Shown piece after piece: positions 1,687 through 41,775 of a stretch of 64,000 nucleotides of DNA (position 1 is the first letter of the stretch; every line of letters starts with the position of its first letter). The notes beneath the pieces were generated by a model. That model made no database searches, had not been told where the DNA came from, and saw only the letters and a list, made by a program, of their open reading frames with translations. The stretch is taken from assembly GCA_003116975.1 (NCBI GenBank), contig BGKB01000001.1, forward strand, positions 608,212-672,211. Direction: 5' to 3'. The stretch is from Aurantiochytrium sp. KH105 (Eukaryota > Sar > Bigyra > Thraustochytrida > Thraustochytriidae). A program made the translations under genes and the position numbers.

Positions 1687-1954
1687 GGCTTTTTCCTGAA
1701 GAGAAAGAATGGAAACAAGACAGGCCTACGACCTCAGCGTCTTGACTGATTTTTTGTTTGTTTGTAAAAGCGAATACTACATGAAAGAGGAAAAAGAAAA
1801 AAGAAAAAGGTGATTGCTTGGGACTTCCTCCTCCTTCCAGTTTCGTGTGGTCCTTCCCAAACTCGCTTTCGGCATGTGCACTACCTCTGCGAGGAGCCTA
1901 CCACGTAAATAGATACACAAATAAGAAACTTTTTCGATTCACATGTCACTTTTG

Positions 1955-3361
1955 TCAGGGTTGCTGCTGGCCATCGAGTGCCACAACAAGGTCGGGCCTC
2001 GCTGCGCGAAAGTCATCGACCAAGGTCTTTCCATCACCGAGGTCATTTCCGCCGAGCTCGAGGGTGCGGAGCGTCGAGTTTTCCTGCAAAGGCGTCTTGA
2101 GTGCCTCAGCACCCTCGCGTGTGAGACCTACACCACCAATTCCAAGCGTCTCTAGCGTTGCATTCTCGCGAAGAAGGTCGGCGAGGATGGCCACGCCGTC
2201 ATTACCAAGGGCATTGCCCATGAGACGGAGCTCCTTGAGACTGACGCCTTGCAAAAGATCGCCGACAGCCGCACGAAAGTCCTCGTTGCCCGCGCCAGTC
2301 GGATCTTCGACCACGCTGACGCCAATACTTGTGAGGTTGAGTCGTTGCAGACGTGGCGCAGCGTCTGAATCGGTCTGCGAGCTTTTCGAAAGCGCAGCAC
2401 CAAAAGCAGCCAATCCCGACAACCCCATCTTGTTCGCACGAAGGTCCAGGTCGTCAAGCTGCGTGGCGCAAATCGAAGCCGTGGCAGAAGACACCTCCTT
2501 GATTTCGTTTCGCCCAACAGCCAGAATGCGGAGCGCATGAAAGCACGATCCCACGCGATCTGATGCTGCGATGATGGACGCAAAGCCTTCCGCGCCAAGT
2601 CCGCAGGCATCCACATGCAATTCGCGGACACTCGATAGAGAAGAGACCTCCGAGCTGCTCGCCGATGAGGCAGAGTGCTGGGCGTCGTCCTTGTCTTCCG
2701 CTGCTTCGTCGCCCACGAGGGCACGGGCGCCAGCGTCGCCAATCGCGGGATTGTCACTCAGAATGAGACGGAGAGATCCCTGAGCCGCTGAGGACCCTCG
2801 AAGGGCCTTGCCAAGCGCGCGGCATCCCTCGACGCCGAGGCCACTAGAATTGAGCTCGAGATTTCGCAAGAACAAAGGCCCATTGCGCAGACCCTGCGCA
2901 AGGGCTGCCACGCCTCCATCCCCAAGGTCATTGCGACCGAGGCGGAGATCTTGAAGCGCATGTGACGGCTGCGCAAGTACGCAACCAAGATGCGGCATGC
3001 CACCTGCTGTAAGAGACTTGAACTCGAGGTCGAGCGCTTCGAGCGTCGAATTCTCCCAGGCATCCAGGAGCGCGGCGAGCTCGGCATCCCCGAATTGGGC
3101 GCAACCGACGGAGAGTCGTTTGAGCGTGGAGTTTTGCCGCAGCGCCTGCCCCAAGCGTTTTGCCGCGTCCTCGGACACGCTATGTCCAGAGCACAGCAGC
3201 TCTTCGAGCGAGGAGTTCTCCGCGAGCGCGTCTGCAAGCGCGCACAGGCCGCTTTCGTCAACCTTGCGCATGCTCATGACCAGCAGGGCGGGGCCCGTCT
3301 CATTGGCGCGGAGTTTAGCGACGAGGTCGTCCACGCCGCGACGCTGCTGGCCCCACGCCAT
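1955..3361 (-). CDS. Ribonuclease-inhibitor-type leucine-rich repeat protein
   Basis: A 468-residue protein built almost entirely from RI-type LRRs of about 28 residues, with recurrent LxxLxLxxNxLGDxGxxALA signatures such as LRLGRNDLGDGGVAALA and LELGGNDLGDGKTLV. This is the repeat class of NLRC3-like and RanGAP-like proteins. No NACHT, CARD or other domain is attached and no signal peptide is seen, so a cytosolic binding scaffold is the most that can be said. The first in-frame ATG is at 3361 (MAWGQQRRGVDD); the frame is open a little further upstream but has no earlier ATG. The gene is convergent with TBCE (268 bp apart) and divergent from the TOG-domain gene, sharing a 417-bp promoter with a copy of the AAAAAGGGTTGCGC element. 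Confidence 0.85.
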   Translation of the reverse strand: MAWGQQRRGVDDLVAKLRANETGPALLVMSMRKVDESGLCALADALAENSSLEELLCSGHSVSEDAAKRLGQALRQNSTLKRLSVGCAQFGDAELAALLDAWENSTLEALDLEFKSLTAGGMPHLGCVLAQPSHALQDLRLGRNDLGDGGVAALAQGLRNGPLFLRNLELNSSGLGVEGCRALGKALRGSSAAQGSLRLILSDNPAIGDAGARALVGDEAAEDKDDAQHSASSASSSEVSSLSSVRELHVDACGLGAEGFASIIAASDRVGSCFHALRILAVGRNEIKEVSSATASICATQLDDLDLRANKMGLSGLAAFGAALSKSSQTDSDAAPRLQRLNLTSIGVSVVEDPTGAGNEDFRAAVGDLLQGVSLKELRLMGNALGNDGVAILADLLRENATLETLGIGGVGLTREGAEALKTPLQENSTLRTLELGGNDLGDGKTLVDDFRAARPDLVVALDGQQQP

Positions 3362-3778
3362 CTTTCCCTCCTGTCCGTCTTTGCAGTCCTCGTCCAAGGG
3401 TTCTCTGCAATCTGTGACTGGCCAAAAGCCCCTCGCGTAGAGGGCGGGGTCTTGCCTTGCTTGATGATCGATCGCACAGCCACTCGACGAGGGAAACAGA
3501 AAGAGTTGCGCTAAAAAGGGTTGCGCAATGTAAAGCGGGTTGCGGCGGCTTCTCGCTCGTCCTTAGGAAGCTCGCAACGGTTCTATTGCCAAGAAGGTGA
3601 ATAAGGACGCGGAGCCCGACGCGACCATGAAGAGCAGAGCCGCCTGCTGCGCTGCGCAAGCTATAGCTAGACAGCCCTGTCCACTTTAGCACTGTGCTCT
3701 GCTGCGGCTTCGGCTGCGAGCTTCTTTTCAGGTGCAGGGGCTCGCGCGATCGGATGTTTGGCGCGCAAGAGCAGGTCC
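3362..3778. promoter_or_regulatory. Divergent promoter between LRR-RI and CLASP-like genes
   Basis: A 417-bp intergenic stretch between two divergent start codons. It holds the 14-mer AAAAAGGGTTGCGC and a second partial copy, GCGGGTTGCGG, 20 bp downstream. No convincing TATA box and no credible ORF was seen. Confidence 0.5.
3513..3526 (+). promoter_or_regulatory. Shared 14-mer promoter element AAAAAGGGTTGCGC
   Basis: An exact match to two copies in the methyltransferase/UPRT divergent promoter. The GGGTTGCGC core starts 261 bp upstream of the chosen ATG of the CLASP-like gene. Its function as a promoter element is inferred from recurrence and position only. Confidence 0.5.
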
Positions 3779-5833
3779 ATGACGCGGGGCGCCACACGCG
3801 GCGAGAAGGAAAATTGCCATGGGATCATACCGTCGTCGCAAGACGAGGAAATAGCATCGCCAAAGGGATGGTCCCCGCGCGCAAGTGAGATGATGCCTAC
3901 TAACACCAGTGTGGAGACGGATCTTCTTCCCTTTAAAGGCGATGAGGCAACAGAGGAAGCCTTGGCACACGCTGCGCGTTCTTGCGTTGCACTTTTGCGC
4001 AACAAGGATGATTGGGAACGCCAAGCCACAGGGCTCCAACTCATGCAAAGATTGGCAGTCTTTTCGCCAGAGACACTTGCAGCAGATCCGAGCTTGTACA
4101 AGACCCTTCTCGGATGGGTAGTACGCAGCGTTAGCTCGCTGCGATCAGCGTTGTCTAAAAGAGCAGCCCAAACATTGTCGGAGCTCTTTGCCCGCTTGGG
4201 CCCCAAGCTCAACGCGCCTCTCACCGACCTTCTCATTCCCGCGCTCATGAAGCGCGCCTCTGACAATACGAGTGGCTTTATTCGCCAGCATGCGCGCGCT
4301 GCATTGCACTCCTTTTGCACAAAGTGCGGGTCGCGAGATGTGGTACGGCAACTTGTAATTTTTATCCAGAGCTCAAACGCTAGCTTACGAGAGATCGCTC
4401 TCTTGGCAATCCATGACTGCCTCGCTGCCAGTGATCAGAATCACGTCCACCGAGATACCTTAAATGACGATGCCATGCGAGCAGTCCTCCAGGATCCCAA
4501 TCCGCGCGTTCGCAAGGCCGCGGCGCAGGTGCAAAACTTGCTTGCCAACGGGGGGTACAAGAGCAACGACACGCCTTCTGCACTATTGGACGCCAGCGAG
4601 TCCCGGCGTCTCGACGGCGCGTCCTTGTCGGCGCGAACGTCAACACGGGGTACCAAGCCATCTTTTCTCCCTGTTCTCAATAACCATCGTCGAGTTCCAG
4701 ACCCTTCCTTGACTTCAGACATGAGCGGGCCGCGAGTAGAGGCGGCTCCCGAGCTCCCGGCTCTAGGTCTGCCGAGCAAGCCAAGCAGTCCTCATCGTCG
4801 AGGTCGCACGCGTGGCAGTCCCGAGCGGAGTCGAACACGGGGAAGTCCTAGTCGATCAAGACGGATGCCATCGTCACCGTCCAAGCCAGAACCGGCAACA
4901 CGGATACCAAGTCTTCAGACGAACGATCTTGCCGATCAAAATAACATTTCCATGGAGACGTGGCGGAGACGTCGGGCTACGAAATTGCGGCAGCCAACGA
5001 GAAGGCAGACGAGAGTCGCGTCTTCACCAACGCATAGCAGAGCGTCACGCTTGCGACCTCGCAGACCGCAAACACAGGCCCCTTCTAAAATGACAAGCCC
5101 CTCGCCGACGACCCATGTGCATGCTGAGCAGGAAAGACCAATTATTGAACCCATCGAGAGGGTTCACGAAGACAAGCAAGACGTGCATTCTGAACGTGGG
5201 GTGAGGACTACGAACGATTTTGCATCAACGGATCGGGATGGCATGGCGCCGTACCAGTTCGACTATGGCGTGGTGGACGGCTCGGCCGAGGTCTCAGCGC
5301 ACGTTCCGCGTCCAGCGCCACAGAATTCAGTGCATCGCGCCGTGGAGGCGGCGGTGCGCCCCGTGACTTTGCGAGGAATCGTCACCCCTGAACACGTGCA
5401 GCGCGCACGGGATGCGAGTGATGACATTTGGGCACCTGTCCCGGAAACAGAGGAGCCGAGCTACGGAGGCGCCAGATCTGCGAAGGGTCATGAGAGAGCA
5501 AACGTAGATGATTCATCGACATGGCAGCAGACTGAGCAGCAAGAAGTAGCTCTGTGGCAAGAAATTGCTGGCTTGGACCAGCGGCTTGCTGCAGTACGCA
5601 CGCGAGCGCGTCTACGACAAGCGCGCATCAAGACTGGAATCGATGCCATGCCGGCAGACTTGGGTTTGTCGCCGGCAGGCGCGGCTATTTACGCAAACGC
5701 AGTTGCCGAAGCCCCAGCGTATGACGTCTCTACGGATCGCAGCAAAGTTCTAAGCCTTCCAAAGTTGCCGAAAAAAATTGGTGCGGAAACGCACGTCAGG
5801 CACCAGGGGCGTGGTCATTGGAAACCAGCCTAA
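3779..5833 (+). CDS. CLASP/TOG-domain microtubule-associated protein
   Basis: A 684-residue protein. Residues about 53-260 form a HEAT-repeat TOG domain of CLASP type: the stretches DDWERQATGLQLMQRL, SLRSALSKRAAQTLSELFA and PRVRKAAAQVQNLL are the expected helices. It is followed by a long basic Ser/Pro/Arg-rich region with R-G-S-P repeats. That region contains T374-R-I-P377 in a basic context, which fits the [S/T]-x-I-P EB1-binding motif. A predicted coiled coil (EQQEVALWQEIAGLDQRLAAV) lies near the C-terminus. Family members bind tubulin and regulate microtubule dynamics at plus ends, the cortex or the axoneme. Only one TOG domain is present, where animal CLASPs and TOGARAMs have several. 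ATG 3779 is the first in frame; ATGs at 3890 and 3893 are reasonable alternatives because the TOG homology begins after them. Confidence 0.75.
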   Translation: MTRGATRGEKENCHGIIPSSQDEEIASPKGWSPRASEMMPTNTSVETDLLPFKGDEATEEALAHAARSCVALLRNKDDWERQATGLQLMQRLAVFSPETLAADPSLYKTLLGWVVRSVSSLRSALSKRAAQTLSELFARLGPKLNAPLTDLLIPALMKRASDNTSGFIRQHARAALHSFCTKCGSRDVVRQLVIFIQSSNASLREIALLAIHDCLAASDQNHVHRDTLNDDAMRAVLQDPNPRVRKAAAQVQNLLANGGYKSNDTPSALLDASESRRLDGASLSARTSTRGTKPSFLPVLNNHRRVPDPSLTSDMSGPRVEAAPELPALGLPSKPSSPHRRGRTRGSPERSRTRGSPSRSRRMPSSPSKPEPATRIPSLQTNDLADQNNISMETWRRRRATKLRQPTRRQTRVASSPTHSRASRLRPRRPQTQAPSKMTSPSPTTHVHAEQERPIIEPIERVHEDKQDVHSERGVRTTNDFASTDRDGMAPYQFDYGVVDGSAEVSAHVPRPAPQNSVHRAVEAAVRPVTLRGIVTPEHVQRARDASDDIWAPVPETEEPSYGGARSAKGHERANVDDSSTWQQTEQQEVALWQEIAGLDQRLAAVRTRARLRQARIKTGIDAMPADLGLSPAGAAIYANAVAEAPAYDVSTDRSKVLSLPKLPKKIGAETHVRHQGRGHWKPA

Positions 5834-6519
5834 CAGTAAGGGCATTGTGAGAAGCGAGGACGAGGAAAAATAAACATCAACGTCGAATCCTGAGCAGCCT
5901 CGATCCCAATGAGTCGCGAAGCTCGGTCTCTCGGTCTCGATCAATCTTTACGTGCACGTCGGACGCCTCGAGTGAGTTCTGACAAGTCTTAACTCCACCA
6001 CTTATTCTCTTTCTCCTCCTCTTTCTCCTCCTTCTCCTCCTCCTCCTCATGATGATGATGATCATCATCATCGTCACTGACATGACCGTCTGTTCGCGAG
6101 CTTCGTGCCGCAAGAAACGTTGCGCTCGAATGATGACGTCGAGCCCTCTCGGCGGTAATTCAGAGGACGCCCGAACTGGAACCGATTCGGAACGAGACGA
6201 GAACTGCGTCTTCCTCCTCCTTTTTTTTTTTTTTTTGATGTCTTCGGCATTCGGGACAAGCGTCAATGCGCTGAACTTGGGTCGCCGCAGCGACGTCTCG
6301 GCCGTTCGGGTCGGGCCGGGCGAAGACATTGTGCGAACTTGGGTATGATCTCCACGGAGCGAGAGCTTGACGCCAAACTCCTCCGGATGCAAAACCGCAA
6401 TCGAATCTCTTAGAAAATACAACAAGAGCCATCGTCGCAAGAAAAGGCAACGAGCCTCCCTGTACATCTGAAGAGCGAGCACAAACCCACGCACACACAC
6501 ACACACGAAGCAGAAGCAC
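5834..6519. other. Intergenic region with polypyrimidine tract and palindrome
   Basis: This 686-bp stretch upstream of the TauD-like gene holds a CTC-rich pyrimidine tract (about 6010-6048), a perfect 22-bp palindrome of GATGATGATG and its complement (6051-6072), a run of 16 T (6221-6236) and a short (AC)n tract just before the start codon at 6520. GTTGCGC at about 6119 is only a partial match to the recurring promoter core. Long ORFs on the minus strand here are arginine-rich low-complexity products of the CTC tract and are not accepted. Confidence 0.5.
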
Positions 6520-7581
6520 ATGATGGAAACGCCATTCCTCGAGGCGCAAGACGGAAGAGAGAAAATGACAACGCTGACGAGATCGTATTCTAGGACCACT
6601 CGTACGCTACTTGTCGGTATGCTGGTAATGCTCGGAGCTTTTGCTGCCATGTTCGCAAGGTCGCCGCTGCACAATTCGAAACTGCAAATTGTGCAAATGA
6701 GCAACAAGACCTTTGGAGCAGAGGTGTACGGTTTTGATGCCCCGACCATGGCCAGAGACGCAGAGATGATGGCAAAAGTACGGGCTGCGCTTGAAGAGCA
6801 TCTCGTTCTCCGCTTTCACAATGTGGCGCAGGATTTGACACCAGCCTTGCATGTTGACCTGGCCAAGCGCATCGGCCCTGTCGACCCTCAGGTCTCTGCA
6901 CCGCCAAAGTACTTGCTCAAGGGTGTCTTTAACAGTCCAGAACAAGTGAAGCGCGCGGCTGCACTTGGAGTCGATGCACATGCTCTGGGCGAGACAATGC
7001 GCAAAGCTGCCGAGGGGGCGCGCGAGCTACCTCGCGAGATTACGCGCATCGTCAAGGAGCCAAGCGATGTGGCAGCCTTCGGAGAGGGCTGGCATTCAGA
7101 TCTCACGTATCTGGCGACGCCGCCATTTGCGGCCGCTCTCGCGGCAAGAGAGCTTCCGTCCGTAGGTCTCGGAAACACAATGTTTCTCGACATGCGAGCG
7201 GCTTTTGATACGCTGCCAGAAGATCTGAAGGTGCGTGCGTCTGAGGCCTCGGCCAACCACACGGATGGACATCAGTCGTGGACAGTGCATCCTGCGGTGC
7301 GGGTGGACAATATGCATTCAAGGCCAAGTCTCTTTGTCAACAAAGCCTTTGCGCGGCACATGGTCCCGCGCAACGTCTCTTCGGATAGCCTGCTGACCTC
7401 CTTGCTCGCTCACGTCGACGCTTTACCTGAATTGGCGCCACAAGCGTTTCTGAATCTTACATGGACCGACGGACAGCTTTTGATGTGGGACAACCGCTTC
7501 ACGCAACACGCTGCTGTTGCAGATTATCACACCCGACGAGAAATGCATCGTGTTATTGTCTCGGGGAATGCTCCCTTTTGA
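6520..7581 (+). CDS. Membrane-anchored TauD/TfdA-family 2-oxoglutarate dioxygenase
   Basis: A 353-residue protein. Residues about 28-46 (LLVGMLVMLGAFAAMFA) form one hydrophobic segment after a basic N-terminus, a likely type II signal anchor. The rest is a TauD/TfdA fold. The iron facial triad is H192-x-D194 in WHSDLTY and H330 in WDNRFTQHAAVADY; the C-terminal RREMHRV supplies the arginine expected to hold 2-oxoglutarate. The family hydroxylates small substrates such as taurine, sulfonates and aromatic ethers with Fe(II), O2 and 2-oxoglutarate. The substrate cannot be read from the sequence. The membrane anchor is unusual for a family that is mostly soluble in bacteria. The start is the first of two adjacent ATGs; the second Met (6523) is equally possible. 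It is convergent with the TPR gene, 228 bp away. Confidence 0.88.
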   Translation: MMETPFLEAQDGREKMTTLTRSYSRTTRTLLVGMLVMLGAFAAMFARSPLHNSKLQIVQMSNKTFGAEVYGFDAPTMARDAEMMAKVRAALEEHLVLRFHNVAQDLTPALHVDLAKRIGPVDPQVSAPPKYLLKGVFNSPEQVKRAAALGVDAHALGETMRKAAEGARELPREITRIVKEPSDVAAFGEGWHSDLTYLATPPFAAALAARELPSVGLGNTMFLDMRAAFDTLPEDLKVRASEASANHTDGHQSWTVHPAVRVDNMHSRPSLFVNKAFARHMVPRNVSSDSLLTSLLAHVDALPELAPQAFLNLTWTDGQLLMWDNRFTQHAAVADYHTRREMHRVIVSGNAPF

Positions 7582-7809
7582 GTGAGAACAAGGCACCAAG
7601 CAAGCTACAATATTTCACCACGGAAAAGGAAATACAAAAGACGATGCAAAACCTGTAAATTTTACTACCATCATTGATTATCTTTCTTTCTTTTTCGTGT
7701 TTCTTGGCTCTGGATGAGGGAAGCCATGAGCAAGTACGAGTTGGCAGGGAAGAAAACTAGAAGGGAAGACCTGGACATTTTCTGAAAACGATAAATGAAA
7801 AACTCGCGA

Positions 7810-9516
7810 TCAAAAGGAGGAGTAGCCACCCTGCTGAAAGCCTAGTTCCTTTGCGCGCCTGCTCGCGCCAGCAGCGACCTCATCGTTGCCCATTGCAGCC
7901 AGGACGCGAGCGAAAAAGTTCCATGCGCAAGGGTCATTGGGATTGCGAAGGGTGCGCTGGCTCATCAAAGCGCGTGCTTCGCGCAGAGCAAGGAGATTCT
8001 CCTCACTACTGCCGGGCCGCACAACGTTTTGCTGCGATGGGTCTGCGGAACGCACATCAATGTTCGCAGCGCGAAGCGTGCACTCACAGTGAACAATGGC
8101 TAGAAGCTCTGCATCTGTGGCCCGTCCAAGTACAGCGGACCAATCGCCCTGAGTGAGCGACAAGGCCTTTGCGGCCTGCGCAAACTGACCATCGGCACGA
8201 AGCAAAAACGCTTCGCATACCGTGAGAAGAAGAGATGAATCCTTGCACATGGCTGTGAGGTCTGCGGCACGAGCACGGTCACCCTGACCAAGCGCCACGA
8301 GAACCTTGTGAAAGTGCAAGGAGGGGTCAGTGCGCGCCGTTTCGGGCGTAGCCTGTACCGCGTCGGGGACGCGTGCAATAATGTTGAAGCGATCTGTAAT
8401 GGAAGGCGAAGATGGGGCGTCCTTGCTCGCTTGAAAAAGTTTACGAAGGTCGAAACGGGGCATCTCTTGGTCGTGATGGAGGATCCACTCGTCATCGCCG
8501 CCAAGTACAAGAGAGCGCCAGAGAATGAGTGTTGCCTGGGGCCAGCTTTGTGGCCATGTTTCGGGGAAGGACAAGAGCGTATCCGTATGCTGTAATGCTG
8601 GGCGGAACTTTGCGCATTGTAAAGCAGCAATGGCCTGCGTGTAGTAGAACTCTCCGGCGAGGGATGAAACAGGACGGAGGCTGGCCTCAAAGACGTGTTC
8701 GAGCTCCCGCGTAAGACGAACGCATTCGCGAAAGCGGTAAGACTTTAGGAACCCGTGTGCCGTAGCCATTGCGGCCATACCCTGATTATACTCTGTAGCG
8801 AGTGCCTCGCCGGCAATGCGCTCTCCTTCGCCGAGAAATCCACAGGCAAAGAGCGCATTGGCGTGCAGGCCCTGAACGGCCGGAAAGCTTGGCAGTTCTG
8901 GAAGCCATTCTGACAAGGTGCGCTCAACACAGGCTAACGCGCGGTCCGTGTCTCCACGGCGCATGTAGATCTCCTGAAGCGAGCGGAGTGCGACAATGTT
9001 GAATGGATTTGTGAGGAGGCGGTCCTCGAAAATTTGGACCGCGCGAACGGCGTCGTTATCGCCCAGAGCGCGCGTCGCGGCCACGAGACAGACGGCATCT
9101 TCCGAGGGCTCTTCAGACACGATCGGGTCGTTGGCCAGGGCGTGCATTCTCGCGTCAAGGGCTGCGAGAGGTTCTTGCAGCTCGTCGCGGGTCGAGCGCC
9201 ACGGTTTCCGCTCAAAGAGTCGCGTGAGCCCCCAGAGCGCTTCGGCAGAGCCGCAGAGGATGGCTCCGCTGCGCACAAGCGCTTCGGCCTCGGTCGCGGG
9301 CTGCCCGTGTCCGCAACTAAAGGCTGCGGCGATGTCGCCAAAGGTCTCGGCATGCTTGAGCGCCGCGTAGTCGTCGCCGCCGACGGTGAGCTGCATGCCA
9401 CCGTACACGCAGGTTACCTTGGAGGCTGTGCTTGCGTGGGTGGCGAGCGCCCGCGCCCCGCGCGCGCCCGCCGTCTTGACCCTCTGCATCGCAATGGAGG
9501 CCCGCATTGTCCGCAT
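7810..9516 (-). CDS. TTC38: TTC38-like tetratricopeptide repeat protein, probably mitochondrial
   Basis: A 568-residue protein. The N-terminus (MRTMRASIAMQRVKTAGARG) is rich in Arg, Ala and Ser without acids, like a mitochondrial presequence. The body is helical TPR-like sequence that follows the TTC38 pattern: a block LLTNPFNIVALRSLQEIYM, then VQGLHANALFACGFLGEG and MAAMATAHGFLKSYRFRE, where TTC38 proteins carry the 'A.HA.AHV...G...EG' region. A final TPR (PCAWNFFARVLAAMGNDEVA) closes the protein. TTC38 has no settled biochemical role. The first ATG is 9516; a stop lies 14 codons upstream in the same frame. The gene lies head-to-tail with the SWEET array downstream on the minus strand. The family call is by eye and moderate. 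Confidence 0.65.
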   Translation of the reverse strand: MRTMRASIAMQRVKTAGARGARALATHASTASKVTCVYGGMQLTVGGDDYAALKHAETFGDIAAAFSCGHGQPATEAEALVRSGAILCGSAEALWGLTRLFERKPWRSTRDELQEPLAALDARMHALANDPIVSEEPSEDAVCLVAATRALGDNDAVRAVQIFEDRLLTNPFNIVALRSLQEIYMRRGDTDRALACVERTLSEWLPELPSFPAVQGLHANALFACGFLGEGERIAGEALATEYNQGMAAMATAHGFLKSYRFRECVRLTRELEHVFEASLRPVSSLAGEFYYTQAIAALQCAKFRPALQHTDTLLSFPETWPQSWPQATLILWRSLVLGGDDEWILHHDQEMPRFDLRKLFQASKDAPSSPSITDRFNIIARVPDAVQATPETARTDPSLHFHKVLVALGQGDRARAADLTAMCKDSSLLLTVCEAFLLRADGQFAQAAKALSLTQGDWSAVLGRATDAELLAIVHCECTLRAANIDVRSADPSQQNVVRPGSSEENLLALREARALMSQRTLRNPNDPCAWNFFARVLAAMGNDEVAAGASRRAKELGFQQGGYSSF

Positions 9517-23852: not shown

Positions 23853-25338
23853 TGACGGGAGGACAACAAGTCATGACGTTACCATCACAACCAGCCGCCC
23901 GCGATGGCCCTATCCGCTGGCTGATTTGGCATCGATTATTTGCTTGCTCATCTACAGTTGGTGCTGATCGCGTGCACACGCACGCATTGACCTGAATCGG
24001 CATGCAAGGTGTTTGGGCTTGTCCCATTGGGCATCATGATTAACCTCCTCCGAAATTGACTTTTTCCCATCCTCGTGCCGTACCACTACAGACTCCTTTG
24101 GAAGCATACAGCCACACCAAGCACTGCAAGCTCGTCGCTACCTTTTATCGGTGGTACTCCAGCGAGTGGGCTCGTTGTGCTACGTTTTGGGACGCAATCC
24201 TGCACTTTAATCGGCAAATTCTGTAGTATAGTAGTATTTCTGGGACACCAACCAACCACACGAGAATAGTCTATTCCCCCTTTTCCTTTTTCTCAAACCA
24301 ACGTCAAGACCAAGAACAAGACCAAGACCAAGACCAGGAACGACACGAAAGTGGCGAAGTCAATGGAGCACGTGCGAAGTCACGTTATCGACCGATTGTG
24401 CAGACAGCCACTCATTCTCCGCCGGCTTCAGCGTCTGGCCCACGCGCCGCCGAGCCTCGTTTTAGCTCGTGCGGTGCGCTAGCGCACGCACATACGCACG
24501 GACGGGGCATTGCTTTATCCACTTCTTGGCACTCGTGTGCTCAAGGCGGCAAATTCGGAAATAATTGGCCCGACCAGATGGCAGGCCTTGCGACCGCGAT
24601 CTCGTCTTCCATGCTCGACCTGCACGTGGTGTGGACTTTGACTTGAACGCACGCTGCAGCGTCGCGAGGGTGATCGATCGCCCCGCTGGCCGAGGAGGGG
24701 GGAAATTGAGCAGCAGTAGCAACAAGGGCAGCAAAAGCAACCAGCGCTCTCAGCCGCGTCACCAAGGGCCAATACATTCGTGACGATGAGGCCTGCGTCC
24801 CGCGAGGGCACGCGGCGGCCTCCACGTCGCAGTCGCAGTCTTCGTCGCAGCCTTTAGTCGGCACCGGCGCCGCAAGGAGCGCAGCGCAGGGCAGCGCGAC
24901 GGCCCTGGCAGGTGTGTCCCGCTGGAAGCGCCGGCCGGGAGGGGGTGTGCGCGCGTGTCTCAGGTCCACGCCTCGCTCTCGCTGCCTCGCTCCCTCCCTC
25001 CCTCCGTCCCTCCCTCCCTGGCCGCCTCTCCCTCCCAGGCGGGCGGCGTCGTCGTTGCCTGCGACCCGCAGCAGCGGCGGCGGCGGTGGCGGCGGCCACA
25101 GGCGCGGCCAGCCCGGGCCCGAGCGCAGCGGCGCGGGCGACGCCCTTCGCCCTCGGCCGCGCGTCTGGCACCGTCGACGGAAGGCACCGAAGGAGGAGGA
25201 GGCTATGGCCAAGCAACTCGAAGCGCGCGGTCCGCAGCGGGAGGAGGTGAGGCGAGGCGAGGCAAGGCAAGGCGAGGCAAGGCGAGGCGCCGCGTGCACC
25301 CGACGGGAACTCACCGTCACAATGGGCACGCGCTCGGC

Positions 25339-25339
<1 letters not shown>

Positions 25340-25377
<38 letters not shown>

Positions 25378-25388
25378 CGTTGTTGTCG

Positions 25389-25441
<53 letters not shown>

Positions 25442-25450
25442 GTTGTTGTT
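25340..25450 (+). repeat. GTT trinucleotide microsatellite, 37 units
   Basis: 111 bp of GTT interrupted by three GTC units, about 200 bp upstream of the ABHD18 start codon. It translates as homopolymers in all frames and is treated as non-coding promoter-proximal repeat. Confidence 0.95.
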
Positions 25451-25652
25451 GAAATGAGGAAAAAAGTGTTCGCCCGAGATGAACGTGCCAGAGGCGGGCG
25501 GTGTGGAAGGAGGGAGAACAGACTGTTGCAGCGCGTGCAGCCCAGCACACTCGCGAGAAGGAGAACGGAGAACTTGCAGCCTGCCAGCCGGCAGGCAGAC
25601 AGGCAGAAGTTTCTCTCCGCAAGGAAAGAAAGCATACCTGGAATGTCCAGAG

Positions 25653-27086
25653 ATGGCGTCGCTGCAGAGTCTCCTCCTCGGCAAGCTGGACTACGTCTAT
25701 GTGACGGCCACGAGAAGAAGCAGGTTCTTCTCGCACGGCTGGGGCGAAGAATCGATCGAACAGGCCCATCGACTCGTCGAGACGCTTGAGAGGCAAGGGA
25801 CGGAAGAGACTTTTCCTGACATCGATCGTCTCATCCCCGCCAACGCTGATCAGGCTTCCAACGTTGACGAGGACATTGAGCCCGAAGACGACGGCGTTGA
25901 ATTCGCGCATGCAAGTGAGACTGATGCTTGCTCCATCTCGACGTCCAGTAGCGCCGGCAGCGACTCTAGCCCGGATCAAATGATGAAGGAGGGACACAAT
26001 GATGACGACAACGACGATGACGACGACGACGACGACGACGACAATAATGAAAGCAAAGGCAGTTATGAAGCTCAAACGTGGAGCTTCGTCTCGCCATGCG
26101 CAGATTTCCTTCCCAAGGAAAGCCAGACTGCACGCGTGCTTGTGGTTTCCCCCCCTCGCACAGTCCAAGCGCGAGGCGTACTCATCCTCGTTGCAGGCAC
26201 CGGTGAGGTCTCCTTTTGGCGACGCAAGAAATTTATTGCAAAGCCGCTTGCCGCAAAAGGCTTCGTCTCAATCATTCTTGAGAGTGTATTTTACGGTAGC
26301 CGCGCTCCTGTCACGCAAAAGAGGTACTTTTGGCGAACAGTCGGCGACTACCTTCTCCACATGCCCGTCACCGTTGTCGAGGTGGCGAAATTGGCCAAAT
26401 ATGCAAAGCAAACCTACCCCGGACTGCCCATTGGTCTCGTGGGTTCGAGTTTGGGAGGAAGCATGGCCGCGGGCGCTCTTCCTTCAGTCATGCGAGAGTT
26501 TCAAAGTCTTGACAAGGAAAGCCCCCAGGAGCAGCGAGGAAGACTGGAGGAGACACCGATCACACTGTGCACATTTCTGCCGCCGTCCCGGACTGCGTCA
26601 ATTCTCTCGAGCGCAATCGCTTACTTTATTGACTTTCGCGCACTTCAGCGCGACGGAGCTGGTCTCCGGACCATCAAGGAAGTCCGTGAGCGGATTCTCC
26701 ACCTGTGCGAGTCTCATCAGCTTGGCCGCTACTTTTCACTCTTACCCGAGAGCGAGTACAAGCGGACTGCCTTTACCTGTTTCCGGGGCCGTCATGATAA
26801 CTATGTCAGACCGAACGAGGTTGCACTCACGCATGGTATCATTGAGCCTCTTGTCTCGAGTGCTCGTCTCGTCGATGTCTCGGGTGGTCATGTGTGGAAT
26901 ATCATGCGTACGGGGAAAGTGGTCCCGCTTGCCGTCGAGGAAGCATTCTCGCGATCATGCGCAGATTACCCCAATCCAATGAAAACAATTCCCGTCTTTC
27001 ACGAGACGGGAAGCGATCTCACTGATGAAAATGAAAATTGCAATATGACGAATAGAGACTGCCCCGGCCCACTGTGTCAGGTCTAA
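25653..27086 (+). CDS. ABHD18: ABHD18-like alpha/beta hydrolase (DUF2048)
   Basis: A 477-residue protein. The ABHD18 hallmark VAGTGEVSFWRRKKFIAKPL followed by ESVFYGSRAP is present. The nucleophile elbow is G-S-S-L-G-G with S266, the acid is probably D382 in GRHDNYVRP and the base H413 in DVSGGHVWN, so the triad looks intact. The N-terminus SRFFSHGWG matches the family's 'F..GWG' start region. Residues about 117-132 form a poly-Asp/Asn tract (a GAC repeat around 26000-26045) not expected in the family, in a loop before the hydrolase core. The product is a predicted lipase-like serine hydrolase; substrate unknown. The frame is open upstream of 25653, but that stretch is low-complexity and the family homology starts just after MASLQSLLLGKL. 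Confidence 0.85.
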   Translation: MASLQSLLLGKLDYVYVTATRRSRFFSHGWGEESIEQAHRLVETLERQGTEETFPDIDRLIPANADQASNVDEDIEPEDDGVEFAHASETDACSISTSSSAGSDSSPDQMMKEGHNDDDNDDDDDDDDDDNNESKGSYEAQTWSFVSPCADFLPKESQTARVLVVSPPRTVQARGVLILVAGTGEVSFWRRKKFIAKPLAAKGFVSIILESVFYGSRAPVTQKRYFWRTVGDYLLHMPVTVVEVAKLAKYAKQTYPGLPIGLVGSSLGGSMAAGALPSVMREFQSLDKESPQEQRGRLEETPITLCTFLPPSRTASILSSAIAYFIDFRALQRDGAGLRTIKEVRERILHLCESHQLGRYFSLLPESEYKRTAFTCFRGRHDNYVRPNEVALTHGIIEPLVSSARLVDVSGGHVWNIMRTGKVVPLAVEEAFSRSCADYPNPMKTIPVFHETGSDLTDENENCNMTNRDCPGPLCQV

Positions 27087-27412: not shown

Positions 27413-30400
27413 TCAAATGCACCTTGTAAGATTCTTGGTGAGATCCTCGTACGAGCGCGAGACGTTGTGAAGGTCGTGACCTGTGTCGACCCAATGACGG
27501 AGAAGCTCCTTTAAGCTCCAGATCGTCCTCGAGGGCAAAAGGCGAACGGGATCCGAAATGCGGGTCCCCATTAAGGTCTGCCACGAAAGCGAGATGCGTT
27601 TAAGGCTGTTGCGAGGCAAGGACTCGAGCGTGAGCGTGGCGCTCTGCTCGAGGCGGTCTTGGCGCTGCCACTCTTCCCAGTTCTGAAGCCACGCCTCAAA
27701 GTCTTCTTCCGAAACGTTGAGGGCGGCCTCAGCCGCAGCCTCGATGGCTTCATCGGGAATGCTGACATAATTCGGGAAGAGCATGTCCTCTGCAGAGACG
27801 GGAAGGTCGAGTCTCTCGCGAAGATCAATCTCAAAACGGAGATAGACGCAAACGTCATCGACAAAGGTAAGTTGGCCAATAAGCTCACGCACGTGCTCGT
27901 GAACAATTTCAAGACGCATGAGCCGCCGACCAAGGTCGCGGAGCGCCTGACGCTCGCCGCGCGCCTCCGCAACGAGAACCGTCTGCTTCATTTGGTTCAA
28001 GGCCCAGATGGGCTTGTCGCCGCAGGCGTCGCCGCTGTCCGCCATGCGAATGCAAAGACCCTCGCGCACGTCTTGGTCTGACGAGCTCACGAGAAGGTCA
28101 AAGACCTCGTAGACGCGCCGGAGAAGGCCCGGTCGCGTTGTTGTTTGCAGGCTAAACTCCTTGGAATAGAACAGCATGCGGAGAAACTCCTTGACGCCAT
28201 GAGCGTACGCTGATGGAACGGCCTCGACGACCATCGGTGCAGTGATACCGACATTCGATTCGTAAATGCGCCCAAAGCTATCGAGAAAGGTGTTGACAGC
28301 AGACTCGAGCGAAACAAAGTTCCCATCGTCGTCACGATCCCATGCAAGGTCTGGGTCCTCGCGAAGAGTCATGTCGGGTCCCGAGGTTTGTATGAATAGA
28401 AAGGCGTTGTCAAGCACGCCCAAGCGCTCGGTCTCGTCCGTATTCGTAGCTACACCGCTCCTGGTGAGGTCAATGTCGTGACGCCTGCCTTCTCCTTCAT
28501 GACCTTCGAGCCCCCACGAGTCGACACAAGAAGGTAAAGTTGTCAACGACGTGCACCACGTAAGGTCTAGCGTGTAGGCATGGAAATCCTGCGGGAGCTG
28601 CGACAAGCAAGGACTATTGGTGAGCACGAGCTTGTCGACGCGAAGGCCCTCGGGAAGCATAACAAAGTTTGGACAGTCTCGCAACGTGAGCGTCGATACC
28701 GTTGGGTCAAGGTTCGGGATCTCTTCGAGTCTCGAGCAGTATATAAAGTCGAGTCTCGTGGCGCAAAGTCCTGCTTCAATGTGGATGAAGTTGAAGCAAT
28801 CTTTGATTGTGATGTAGGCTTGCTCGAGTCCTTGGACCTGCGTGAGATTCTCGAAAGCTTTGCACCGTTCAATGCACAGGCTCGAAGTTTCCATTTCCTT
28901 GGGCAAGCTCGTGAACGCGGCGCACTCACGCACAGTAACACCTGAGGGCGCAGAGAGACCTTCGCCAAGGTCGGTGAACTTTTCGCATTGGGCGATTTCC
29001 AATACAGAATCTACCGAGAAGTTATTGGGTAGACCCTCGAAACTCTCGCACGAAAACACACTCAGGCTGCGCGTCTCCCCCATTTGAATTTCACGAAATC
29101 TTGAGCAATTCCGAATCGTGACGCTCGTGCTTGAGTCCACCTCGCACAAGCTTTCGAGTGAGGGGCAACTTGTTGCAACGAGCTCCCTCTTGACCAAAAT
29201 GCCACGGAGGGAAGAAAGCTCTTCACACGAAACAACCTCGAGCTTCTCCAACTCAAAATCGTCGGGGAGATCGAGCGAGTGAACCTTGCCACACCCCTCG
29301 AGAGTGAGATTTTCCACTTTGCATCTCGAAGACTCGTATGCGTCCGCGGGATGTGTAATGGAAAAGTGCGCAAGCTCTGGGAGACTCTTGAGTGTGAGCG
29401 TTGCGAATCGCTTTATCGTGATAATCTCGATGCTGTTCAGCATTGGGCAGGCGCTGATGGACCAATTTGCCAGGTTGCTCGTTTGTGTGTCCTGTGAAGA
29501 TTTGGCGGGGCCCCCGTCAGTGACAGATATCTCGCAGAGATTATTGCATGAACGAAGTTTGAGCAGATTGACCGTGCGAAGTGAGAGTGATGGCATGACT
29601 GAGCCAAAGATGTCAATGTCATCAGACTCGACATCGGGGACATCCTGGATTTTATCGCAATGCTTGATCTGGGATTGTTTGAACACGCGCGCAGGAGTTG
29701 AAGAGAGTTCGGGACAGTCGAAGGCCGAAAATTCGTCGGCAAAAGGGATGTCCAAATCGATGAGCGCAGGACAACTGTAGAGGTGGACCTTTAAGGCCCC
29801 CTCCAAGGCCGACAGCGCAACGAGCGCATCCATGCCGGACATAGTGATTGTGACAGAGGAGCCAAAGGTTACATTGAAGGCGGAGAGACGTGGACACATG
29901 AGCCAGGTGAAATGATATTTCACATTCGCATCACCAACGATCGTTTCGAGGCGCGGACAGAGCCGTGCTGACATGGAGGCCAGAGAGCCGTGCACACTCA
30001 TCTGTTCAAGGTCGTCGAGCTGCGAGATTGAAATTTCGGGAGTGACGTCGTTGCCATTGGCGGTGAGATCCACCTCACGCAGCGATGAGCACGCATGAAG
30101 CCGAATTTTATCACTGAAGGAGCGCACCTCGAGCACTTGGAGAGTCTCGACGAGCATCAGCTCGATCGAGGTGCAGCTATCGATGCTCAGATGAACGAGG
30201 TGTGACAGGGTGTCGAAGCCCAAGAGCGATTCGTATGAGCGCCGGTACCAGCATTCAATGTGCTCAAACTTCGCCGACTGAAGTGCCGAGCAGTTGTTGA
30301 GGTCGACGCGGCCCCCGCACGAGGTTTTTTCGCAGACCTTTAGCGCCGAGCACCCATCCAGAGCGAGATCCTGGCCAACAAAGATCCTGGAGGGAAGCTC

Positions 30401-31138
30401 GGTGAGAGACTCGCACGCATAAAGTAATAGATCGCCGTCGACCTGCTGCAGGGCACCGAGGCTTGACAAATTTGGGCAGTCGCTGAGATCGAGGCTGCCT
30501 TTGACGCAACTGAGAGCGTCACCCAGGGTCGCCAAGTTCGAGCACTCGCTGAGGTCGACGGAGCAGGGAAGATTGGCGACAGGAGGAGGCTCGCTGATGA
30601 GCGACATGGAGAGGTCCAGCCCAATGCTTCGAGTAAGCCACGCGGTGACTTCGATTTCGTCTTCGCACTGCTCGAGGCCTTTCAAATGTTTCTTCAGTTC
30701 TATGCCAGTCCAACTCCGGATCGTATTGAGCGGAGAGCCATCCTCGACGATTTTCACGAGTTGGTCGATGAGGTCTTCGCGCGGGGGATTGTCCGAGAGC
30801 ACGGGTCCCTCGCCCGCGGCAAGGGCTTGCGCGAGAAGTTCTCCCTGGCGCTGCAGGCTTGCATGCTCCGCCGCAGCAGCGCTACGCAGCACGCGCCGCG
30901 TCTTCTTCGCCGCGTCTTCCCGCGCGGCGAGCTCCGCGGCGTCTCCGCGCGCGGCTTCCACCCACTCGTCGAGGGCGCGCGCCACATCCTCGTCCAGGGC
31001 TGCGTTCTCCTCGTCGAGGGCGGCGAGATGCGCGGCCTCCTCCTCGGCTGCTCGTGCCGCGGCCTCGGCCGCTGCGGCTCGCGCGGCGCGGCGGCGACCC
31101 TCGCGCGGCCTGCACAGCAGCGCCGCCAGCCGCACCAT
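27413..31138 (-). CDS. Large LRR protein with C-terminal NEL-type E3 ubiquitin ligase domain
   Basis: A 1241-residue protein. Residues about 10-120 are an Ala/Glu/Arg-rich coiled coil. Residues about 190-880 are many degenerate LRRs of about 20-24 residues with a C-x-x-L-x-x-LP rhythm (LTLRDCPNFVMLPEGL, LDLTWCTSLTTLP). Residues about 905-1225 match the NEL fold of the IpaH/SspH/SlrP effector family: DACGDKPIWALNQMK supplies the catalytic C-x-D (C1039, D1041), followed by LGRRLMRLEIV, QLTFVDDVCVYLRF and EDFEAWLQNWEEW in the expected order. NEL enzymes form a thioester with ubiquitin and modify proteins bound by their LRRs. The frame has no ATG upstream of 31138. No intron, secretion signal or bacterial-style N-terminus is seen. 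In a eukaryotic context this suggests old gene transfer. Domain identity is by motif reading only. Confidence 0.8.
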   Translation of the reverse strand: MVRLAALLCRPREGRRRAARAAAAEAAARAAEEEAAHLAALDEENAALDEDVARALDEWVEAARGDAAELAAREDAAKKTRRVLRSAAAAEHASLQRQGELLAQALAAGEGPVLSDNPPREDLIDQLVKIVEDGSPLNTIRSWTGIELKKHLKGLEQCEDEIEVTAWLTRSIGLDLSMSLISEPPPVANLPCSVDLSECSNLATLGDALSCVKGSLDLSDCPNLSSLGALQQVDGDLLLYACESLTELPSRIFVGQDLALDGCSALKVCEKTSCGGRVDLNNCSALQSAKFEHIECWYRRSYESLLGFDTLSHLVHLSIDSCTSIELMLVETLQVLEVRSFSDKIRLHACSSLREVDLTANGNDVTPEISISQLDDLEQMSVHGSLASMSARLCPRLETIVGDANVKYHFTWLMCPRLSAFNVTFGSSVTITMSGMDALVALSALEGALKVHLYSCPALIDLDIPFADEFSAFDCPELSSTPARVFKQSQIKHCDKIQDVPDVESDDIDIFGSVMPSLSLRTVNLLKLRSCNNLCEISVTDGGPAKSSQDTQTSNLANWSISACPMLNSIEIITIKRFATLTLKSLPELAHFSITHPADAYESSRCKVENLTLEGCGKVHSLDLPDDFELEKLEVVSCEELSSLRGILVKRELVATSCPSLESLCEVDSSTSVTIRNCSRFREIQMGETRSLSVFSCESFEGLPNNFSVDSVLEIAQCEKFTDLGEGLSAPSGVTVRECAAFTSLPKEMETSSLCIERCKAFENLTQVQGLEQAYITIKDCFNFIHIEAGLCATRLDFIYCSRLEEIPNLDPTVSTLTLRDCPNFVMLPEGLRVDKLVLTNSPCLSQLPQDFHAYTLDLTWCTSLTTLPSCVDSWGLEGHEGEGRRHDIDLTRSGVATNTDETERLGVLDNAFLFIQTSGPDMTLREDPDLAWDRDDDGNFVSLESAVNTFLDSFGRIYESNVGITAPMVVEAVPSAYAHGVKEFLRMLFYSKEFSLQTTTRPGLLRRVYEVFDLLVSSSDQDVREGLCIRMADSGDACGDKPIWALNQMKQTVLVAEARGERQALRDLGRRLMRLEIVHEHVRELIGQLTFVDDVCVYLRFEIDLRERLDLPVSAEDMLFPNYVSIPDEAIEAAAEAALNVSEEDFEAWLQNWEEWQRQDRLEQSATLTLESLPRNSLKRISLSWQTLMGTRISDPVRLLPSRTIWSLKELLRHWVDTGHDLHNVSRSYEDLTKNLTRCI

Positions 31139-39647: not shown

Positions 39648-40339
39648 AGACTTGGGCTCTCACGAGGCATCAATGTAACTTTCAGGATAAGAACCAAACA
39701 ATGTACATACACTTCTTCTTTTGTTTTCCATTTTTCTTCGGGCGCTGATCGCGAAGACAACACACGGACGCCCGCGCGACATGGCTTGCAATCGAGAGCG
39801 TAGCATTTGAGATAGAGACATCCGCTCTTGCATGGCCACTGAATGCAGTAATGTTCGATCATGGGTCCGTGCTGGGCTGTTCGTCGTACGCGATCAGTTC
39901 GTTCTTGGCAAGAAAGAGATTTGTTCATGTGCAACATTTGTCATTCAAAGATACTTGTCTGCTGTGTAAGTCGCAACTCATGTCGCCACTTATGGACGAT
40001 TCAACAGGTGTAGATGACATCTGCATCCATGAGCGTTTGTCACGTGTAAGGCTATCATTCGCTCGCAGATATCTTGTTGGGCTTTCGCTTTGATCTGACT
40101 CGTCGCTCACAAACTTCTTCGCATGCTTGAAAAGCCTCTTTAGGTTTCCGATCTCCATGCATCAAGCCGCTGTGGATCTGAGTGAGGCGCCCCGTAATCT
40201 TGCGTTTATCGTACAGTCATCGACGATGGCCACAAGACCTCCTCTTCGAGGTCCCTTTACCCATGGTGATGTTCACCAATGTAGAAGTATGAAACGTATT
40301 TCGACTTTCTTTATGTACAATTCGTGTGTTAGGAAGACT
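39648..40339. other. Convergent intergenic region between PAN-like units
   Basis: 692 bp, AT-richer than the genes. No repeat units, RNA gene or plausible ORF recognised. It is the junction between the two duplicated units. Confidence 0.5.
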
Positions 40340-41107
40340 CTAGCAGTTCTTTGCGTAGCACTTTGCCTTGGAGGACGGCTTGTACGCGCCAATGTATCCG
40401 CGGTACAGCTCGCAGCGACCTGCACCCTCCTCAATGTGAGTACCCCACGGAAGGTTGTCAGGGTTGATCGGCTTGAACTCGTAGTACTTGCACCACTCGT
40501 AGCCCGTGCAGACTTCGCGGCACTTGTCCTCCACACACGGCTTGTCCTTGTTGCAGTACGTCTTGTAGTCTCCCAGGCCGTACGGGGTGCCGTCGTGATC
40601 ATAGGCCTCACGGCAGTAGCCGTGGCCAACAAGCTTGTACTCACAGGTCGGCTCGGGCTCCGGCCGGGGAGGCGTAAAGCACTCGCTCTTGTCTGCCGTC
40701 TTGTACGCTTCGTAACACTCGACGCCGTGCTTGGCCTTGGAGGCGCCCACTTCGCCGCGATGCACCTCGCACGTCTTGCGATGGCTACGGCTGTCGTATT
40801 CCCAGCCGGTGCAGTCTTCGTCTTCGTAGCAGAGCATGGCGCACTCGCTTTTGGACTCGATGTGCTTGTAGAGGTTGAAGGTTCCGGTTCCGACGGGGTT
40901 GCCGTAGTGATCGACCTTCTCACGGCAAAAGCCGTCGCCGAGCTTCTTGAAGGCCAAACAGATGGGCTTGTGTGGGTGCGAGGTGAGCTTGCGGGAGTCT
41001 TGCAAGGTGGTCTGGGCCTTGGAGCGCAGGCTGGCTGCTTCGCTCATGGTGGCGAGAACGGCCATGACGAGGACGAGAAGAATGCTGGCTCGCATGTTCA
41101 TCTCCAT
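40340..41107 (-). CDS. Secreted cysteine-rich PAN-like protein, type A copy 2
   Basis: A 255-residue protein of the same length as copy 1, starting MEMNMRASILLVLVMAVLAT. By manual alignment it differs at about 22 positions (roughly 91% identity). Changes include DHYGEPVG to DHYGNPVG, YEYEDC to YEDEDC and a more diverged C-terminus ending CYAKNC instead of CYMKYC. All cysteines are conserved. The first Met is fixed by an upstream stop-containing region, which supports the same start in copy 1. Role as for copy 1. Confidence 0.87.
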   Translation of the reverse strand: MEMNMRASILLVLVMAVLATMSEAASLRSKAQTTLQDSRKLTSHPHKPICLAFKKLGDGFCREKVDHYGNPVGTGTFNLYKHIESKSECAMLCYEDEDCTGWEYDSRSHRKTCEVHRGEVGASKAKHGVECYEAYKTADKSECFTPPRPEPEPTCEYKLVGHGYCREAYDHDGTPYGLGDYKTYCNKDKPCVEDKCREVCTGYEWCKYYEFKPINPDNLPWGTHIEEGAGRCELYRGYIGAYKPSSKAKCYAKNC

Positions 41108-41775
41108 CTTTCTGTTCCTTTTCCCTTTTGCTTTGCGGTGGTTTTGCTTTGTGTTTTTTGGCTTGAGGTTTGCTTTGAGGTTTGCTTTGAGGTTCTAGTT
41201 CTGGTTGTCGTCTGTCTCGCGATGGGCCTTCCAGCCCTCGCGCACGATGCCAGAGGTGTCACTTCACTTCACAGCACCGTCGACTGGCTCGTCGGCCTCT
41301 TCCTTTATTGGGAGCGAGTCGAGTAAGTGGTCACCAACGCATGACTTCGCTGGCCGATGTGATGAGACCAAACTTGCTGGCTGGCTGGAAGCCAGAGCCT
41401 GCGCATGGATGGCGGAGCCGAGCTCTTCGATGCACGCGAGGTCAACGCCCTGGCCCTTGCGTACATGAACTCGAAGGAGCGCCCGATGCGAAAAAGGGGG
41501 AAGGAAGACAGAGCTGTCTGGCTATCGCTACCTAGTAGCCCAGTAGGAGGGTGCTAGTGAGAGCTGGCCGGTGTGTGCCGGGGTCCGGCTCTGCAACTTG
41601 GAACATGGTCGAGAAAGAAAGGGAACGTAGCAAGCGGACGATGGGCTCATCAGTCTCAATAATTGCAAGCTGCCAAGCATCAGCAAAACGCAAACCACAA
41701 GCCTCAACAAAGCATTTAAAGCAAAGCCTCAGCAACAGCAAGTAGTTTCAAGAAAGAAACCGCAAAACAGAAAGA
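41108..41775. promoter_or_regulatory. Divergent promoter of PAN-like pair 2
   Basis: 668 bp. Near the type A start it has GTTTGCTTTGAG units; the right-hand part is closely similar to the pair 1 promoter, including GTGATGAGA, AAAAAGGGGGAA and GTAGGAGGGTGCTAGTG. Confidence 0.6.

Follow-up and report, generated by a model that had tools for sequence, protein, structure and literature searches.

A eukaryotic family of predicted NEL-type ubiquitin ligases in the thraustochytrid Aurantiochytrium sp. KH105

We analysed a stretch of 64,000 nucleotides from Aurantiochytrium sp. KH105 (contig BGKB01000001.1, positions 608,212 to 672,211; hereafter the window), which contains a gene for a leucine-rich repeat (LRR) protein of 1241 residues whose C-terminal part belongs to the NEL family of ubiquitin ligases. 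Our preferred interpretation, to which we assign a probability of roughly 77%, is that this gene is one of 16 native NEL-family ubiquitin ligase loci whose ancestor was most likely bacterial and which then multiplied inside the eukaryote. A previous reading made from the sequence alone (the sequence-only reading) had proposed a resident LRR-NEL ligase in this protist; the NEL match and the eukaryotic setting support that proposal, with ligase activity as a prediction, and it is strengthened by the finding of 16 loci. The family, the domain fusions of its paralogues and the altered C-terminal module go beyond what that reading had noticed.

The sequence-only reading stood to fall if the protein gave no significant NEL hit. 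A PF14496 profile search instead returned a strong match (E 2.8e-26), at 92.7 bits compared to a cut-off of 24. The NCBIfam model IpaH_Shig also matched the window protein (E 1.2e-14), at 54 bits where the curated cut-off is 550; as this score falls far under the cut-off, the protein is no IpaH equivalog. Its best matches in the PDB were solved NELs of Shigella and Salmonella: among the 13 sequences that phmmer returned to E 1, 12 were IpaH, SlrP or SspH chains (2.3e-13 to 8.1e-6), and the 13th and last was an unrelated chain at E 0.46. When a profile of 16 paralogues was compared with the solved NELs, 12 chains were matched at 2e-26 to 4.7e-23, covering most of the domain.

The residues expected of an active NEL enzyme are retained. 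In IpaH9.8 the catalytic residues are C337, D339 and D397, whose roles are described in PMC11354881, and a C337A mutant is named in PMC7728815. The sequence-only reading had placed a C-x-D motif ahead of LGRRLM and further motifs in the order typical of NEL domains, and positions in the translation bear this out: C1039 and D1041 lie within DACGDKPIW, LGRRLM starts at residue 1069, FVDDVC at 1092 and WLQNWEEW at 1150. The counterpart of Asp397, D1094, was found by counting along the phmmer alignment. Across an alignment of 32 NEL frames from the same genome, the cysteine and the Asp of the C-x-D motif are invariant (32/32 each), and the second Asp is present in 30 frames and replaced by Glu in two.

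These 32 frames were recovered by a NEL profile search of the 76 Mb genome; all score over the cut-off and none has an internal stop, and the same profile matched none of 14 control genomes. A second search of the genome with a divergent family member gave 34 rows, which correspond to the same 32 genes with two of them split. The frames fall into 16 pairs with 96.6-100% amino-acid identity within each pair, while identity between a locus and the nearest of the others is only 36-65%. The paired copies are apparently alleles, or less probably very recent duplicates. Between the copies of a pair, the uncorrected ratio of nonsynonymous to synonymous differences (pN/pS) ranged from 0.00 to 0.50 over the NEL domain and the tail that follows it (pooled 0.13 over 5104 codons) and from 0.02 to 0.54 upstream of NEL (pooled 0.24 over 11492 codons, this upstream part being incomplete in five pairs, that of the window gene included, and edge-cut in L016/L020). 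By this measure the NEL copies are under purifying selection. The family has probably been long resident and active in the protist.

An N-terminal LRR domain, a trait of NEL E3 ligases, is present in the window protein. That a long LRR array precedes the C-terminus had likewise been claimed from the sequence, and both a Pfam LRR_EndoS match and regular motif spacing agree with it: the LRR-like motifs between residues 611 and 857 have a unit of 19-22 residues, and 14 of 20 spacings between such motifs upstream of NEL measure 18-26 residues, compared to at most one such spacing in each of 100 shuffles. The array is the presumed substrate-binding part of the protein, and the Ala/Arg/Glu-rich region at the N-terminus is a possible coiled coil. 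For the paralogues we scanned 16 sequences with Pfam, which represent 15 loci (one as both copies), the window gene being the sixteenth locus. NEL was present in all 16 sequences, accompanied by SPRY and LRRs in two loci (L011, L024) and by SAM in one (L016, where LRR_EndoS reaches 26.0 bits, below its cut-off of 27.9). In the remaining paralogues Pfam sees NEL alone, yet several of the 12 loci examined for spacing show a regular LRR-like pattern; for L029, L032, L034 and L036 the Pfam scan covered 526-583 residues each, short of the N-termini.

Two features of the paralogues were noted in passing. Two NEL loci stand head to head, at 2981-5569 (-) and 6108-9101 (+) in L009 and at 774-3644 (-) and 4372-7014 (+) in L010, the open frames being ~540 bases apart on one copy and ~730 on the other. 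The NEL domain of L011/L012 carries an insert of ~20 residues just ahead of the VDD motif region.

To place the family among bacterial NELs we used sequence searches and a phylogeny. A pattern-based scan of genome contigs gave 91 pattern matches, of which eight encode NEL relatives; all eight are from Pseudomonas (fluorescens and putida group, L038-L045) and share 24-32% identity with the protist proteins over the NEL core. The frame is at least 1592 residues long in six of these loci, where it is edge-cut, and 636 and 330 residues long in the other two, and in none does the protist tail follow NEL. Within the phylum of one Pseudomonas genome, hits to the paralogue profile occur in at least 9 of 398 genomes, a lower bound given that at most six candidates were scored per genome. 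A scan of IMG/VR for viral relatives produced six stretches that fit the pattern, none of which was confirmed. For the tree we used 25 of 31 bacterial hits, having dropped four same-place repeats and two short pieces and kept the identical pair L038/L060. In this midpoint-rooted tree, with a bootstrap still short of full convergence, all 16 protist rows cluster together (100/99) and stand apart from the 25 bacterial NELs on a long branch (1.78 changes per column); the protist/bacterial label changes once, compared to 12.8 times in shuffles. The single protist clade supports a single origin, after which the family expanded within the eukaryote lineage. That the transfer went from bacteria to the eukaryote we infer from the wide bacterial occurrence of NEL in the literature and not from the tree. 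Gene transfer from bacteria is plausible; a bacterial donor was not found in the Pseudomonas phylum by profile or in other bacteria by one pattern-based scan.

The part of the protein that follows the NEL domain differs from its bacterial counterparts. In SspH1, where C492 is catalytic, residues 623-697 make up a thumb that binds E2-ubiquitin and is built from a pair of long antiparallel helices plus a small helical segment (PMC12506513). At the position of this thumb the window protein (residues ~1170-1241) has a differing conserved sequence, with an invariant Trp and with DPV and TG-D-N motifs in most family members. Used as a protein query against its own genome, the tail retrieves 30 of the 32 NEL genes and nothing else at E up to 1; the exception, L017/L018, is also the one NEL pair with no DPV part in its tail. 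A profile of the tails found nothing credible in the bacterial NEL loci, where its best hit (E 1.9) lies in a different frame, and its matches at E ~2 inside bacterial NEL frames are located upstream of NEL.

The core of the tail resembles, though only suggestively, the U-box of E3/E4 ligases such as UFD2/UBE4 and plant PUB proteins. The two are co-linear over the DPV motif, the turn that follows it and a helix with a conserved Trp; unlike the U-box, the tail lacks the second conserved Pro. In hhalign comparisons the tail scored 21.8 with an alignment of 11 U-boxes (P 8.8e-4, probability 23%), 25.4 with four UFD2-type boxes (P 1.7e-4, probability 49%) and 21.7 with the U-boxes that remain once the UFD2-type is removed (probability 21%), and the two halves of the tail alignment gave 19.0 and 24.9 with the register unchanged. 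Controls reached at most 15.8 in 300 column shuffles, none of which scored as high, and 12.8 in eight NEL-core windows; a first run with eight U-boxes had given 22.3, where 60 shuffles reached no more than 14.8 and the reversed alignment scored 9.2. As the U-box was picked for testing after a likeness had been seen by eye, the P-values are somewhat flattering.

One may postulate that the tail is no new module, and is instead the bacterial thumb diverged beyond recognition. We regard this as a serious alternative, if a somewhat doubtful one. The span from the catalytic cysteine is indeed alike, at ~C+131 to C+202 here and C+131 to C+205 in SspH1 (PMC12506513), and the paralogue profile aligns with IpaH for ~20 residues into the tail region. 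The hhalign scores of the tails against bacterial C-termini are only 8.8 (24 rows), 10.1 (8 Pseudomonas rows) and 10.9 (4 short-protein rows), however, whereas those against the U-box alignments are 21.7-25.4; moreover, the tails are somewhat richer in Pro and Gly (a fraction of 0.11 vs 0.07 in bacterial C-termini), and a conserved DPV motif is ill-suited to two long antiparallel helices.

Several results weigh against our interpretation. On the fold, which the sequence-only reading had also named as a point on which it could fail, the AlphaFold2 models were of low confidence and uninformative, with a mean predicted local distance difference test score (pLDDT) of 49.9 for NEL plus tail, modelled with 8 Pseudomonas rows, and of 42.7 for the tail alone. 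Pfam gave no U-box match and no credible domain in any of the 16 tails, and the bacterial helical thumb was not recognisable in them by hhalign against 24 bacterial C-termini. Not all of the 12 loci examined show clear LRR spacing: in some it is weak or lacking, and L015, for example, has 0 regular spacings. Finally, the PfaA-type model that points to the identity of the organism (see below) matches 11 of 14 control genomes to some degree, although none over the cut-off. Given the missing Pfam match, the best PDB match of the tail at E 0.94, the low-confidence models and the flattered P-values, the identity of the tail as a U-box is a lead and not a result. That the tail is the E2-docking part is a guess from its position and its U-box likeness, as the helical thumb cannot be recognised.

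That no bacterial E2-binding thumb can be recognised would also fit LRR adaptors that kept the NEL fold and gave up ubiquitin transfer. We consider this unlikely, since the catalytic Cys (32/32), the Asp of the motif (32/32) and the second Asp (30/32) are kept across loci that share at most 36-65% identity with the nearest of the others, and NEL plus tail is more constrained than the upstream part (pooled pN/pS 0.13 vs 0.24). Another scenario, in which the protist exports its NEL proteins against a host or prey in the manner of bacterial effectors, could draw on the expansion of the family and on the faster change between copies of the part upstream of NEL; it appears less likely still, because inspection of the window protein by eye shows no obvious signal peptide and three loci are fused to SAM or SPRY, domains that mostly occur inside cells. 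Bacterial contamination or an endosymbiont gene, which the sequence-only reading had named as a way in which it could fail and which might be suspected given that other described NELs come from Gram-negative bacteria (PMC9320238), was examined and rejected as extremely improbable: the family comprises 32 frames in 16 allele-like pairs of a 76 Mb assembly, on contigs that range from 86 kb to 1.14 Mb, it has eukaryotic flanking genes in the window and SPRY or SAM fusions in three loci, and its clade is separate from the 25 bacterial rows.

If the protist NELs are active ligases, the known chemistry of the NEL family suggests how the window protein would work. The LRR array would bind a protein, either the cell's own or an intruder's, and a ubiquitin-loaded E2 would dock on the C-terminal module; ubiquitin would pass from the E2 to C1039, where D1041 and D1094 would support catalysis, and would then go from C1039 to a lysine of the LRR-bound protein. 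A bolder proposal, which we put forward tentatively and hold to be rather doubtful, is that the eukaryote rebuilt an effector-type ligase of bacteria by swapping the thumb for a degenerate U-box that docks the E2 and feeds the bacterial-type catalytic cysteine, and that the resulting 16 loci, many of them LRR-guided, serve the cell's own signalling or defence. If true, NEL would be a further class of E3 beside RING, HECT and RBR that is native to some eukaryotes.

Table 1. Features of the LRR-NEL gene, in window coordinates.
Feature	Position	Strand	Basis
LRR-NEL protein gene	27413..31138	(-)	Single open reading frame from ATG to stop, 1241 residues, no internal stop
N-terminal Ala/Arg/Glu-rich region, residues ~1-110	30809..31138	(-)	Read off the sequence; composition computed for residues 1-120
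Leucine-rich repeat array, residues ~190-905 (ends by eye)	28424..30571	(-)	Pfam LRR_EndoS 3.9e-9; motif spacing
NEL catalytic domain, residues 979-1159	27662..28204	(-)	PF14496 E 2.8e-26; PDB matches
C1039, predicted catalytic cysteine	28022..28024	(-)	Aligned with the Cys of the IpaH C-x-D motif; invariant 32/32
D1041 of the C-x-D motif (Asp339 of IpaH9.8)	28016..28018	(-)	Invariant 32/32
D1094, aligned with Asp397 of IpaH9.8	27857..27859	(-)	Asp in 30/32, Glu in 2/32 frames
C-terminal tail specific to the family, where bacterial NELs have the E2-ubiquitin-binding thumb	27416..27676	(-)	Matches 30/32 NEL frames
U-box-like core of the tail, residues 1189-1237, LMGTRISDPVRLLPSRTIWSLKELLRHW...	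27428..27574	(-)	hhalign; suggestive only

The NEL gene is part of a eukaryotic genome. The window lies in contig C1 of an assembly of 76,034,492 bases in 367 contigs, and the size range given above for contigs with NEL frames refers to those whose size was listed. The frames that neighbour the NEL gene match ABHD18 and a Methyltransf_16 lysine methyltransferase. Ten further frames of the window were scanned, eight of which have a match above a family cut-off. These eight are a protein with RGS and EF-hands, a peroxidase, a questin oxidase, a SWEET-type transporter, CLASP, an LRR protein, a protein with WD40 and an NPHP3-type domain, and one with WD40-type families whose best match is Aladin of the nuclear pore (168.2 bits, just under that model's own cut-off of 171.1). 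Of the remaining two, the frame at 7810-9516 has a TPR match only, below the cut-off, and the frame at 40157-41326 has no family match. The frame at 61297-63981 (-) encodes an N-terminal nucleoside triphosphatase domain of the nephrocystin-3 (NPHP3) type followed by WD40 repeats, an architecture like that of nucleotide-binding leucine-rich repeat (NLR) proteins (STAND, signal transduction ATPases with numerous domains), and the frame at 1955-3361 (-) has an LRR_6 match of 66.6 bits as its sole domain. Long trinucleotide repeats occupy 24541-26168 and can be read as runs of Thr, Val, Asn, Gln or Cys depending on the frame. Rfam gave no match in the window at the gathering threshold.

Elsewhere in the assembly, the C4/C55 pair lies at contig starts, where the first 600 bases contain no telomere repeat array. 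The same genome contains a match to a PfaA-type omega-3 synthase at 930 bits, below the model cut-off of 1010, and on both copies this match adjoins an oppositely oriented ketosynthase-region match (G000 C72:305786-314912 and C155:166452-175544). This arrangement is one that we take to fit the polyunsaturated fatty acid synthases of thraustochytrids, and the match leans towards a thraustochytrid-like organism.

The protist proteins are similar to the bacterial NEL effectors (IpaH, SspH, SlrP; PF14496) in the order of LRR and NEL, in the C-x-D motif and second Asp, and in significant similarity over most of the domain. They differ in that they constitute a 16-locus family of a eukaryotic genome, have no recognisable thumb, and possess a conserved tail of their own as well as SPRY or SAM in three loci. 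Encoding by a Gram-negative bacterium and injection by a type III system, also a trait of bacterial NELs, does not apply to proteins encoded on eukaryotic contigs; this is a difference of habitat and not of mechanism.

A NEL-like domain has been claimed for NLR genes of Klebsormidium, based on an LRR-type superfamily domain that is called highly homologous to NEL, and the passages that make this claim name no catalytic residues (PMC7145615). PF14496 appears merely among the search models listed in PMC7029713, and engineered bacterial LRR-NEL proteins have been used in plants or mammalian cells (PMC12770821, PMC12203931). Searches of open-licence PMC full text yielded no account of a NEL family in a eukaryote, although public domain databases may already list entries. 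A 2022 review describes the NEL family as specific to Gram-negative bacteria (PMC9320238), and a resident, selected and expanded eukaryotic family goes against that description. The protist family suggests that this class of enzyme, so far described from bacterial effectors, may also work in a eukaryote, and it makes testable how a cell controls such a ligase, where the family originated and whether NEL can function with another E2-docking part.

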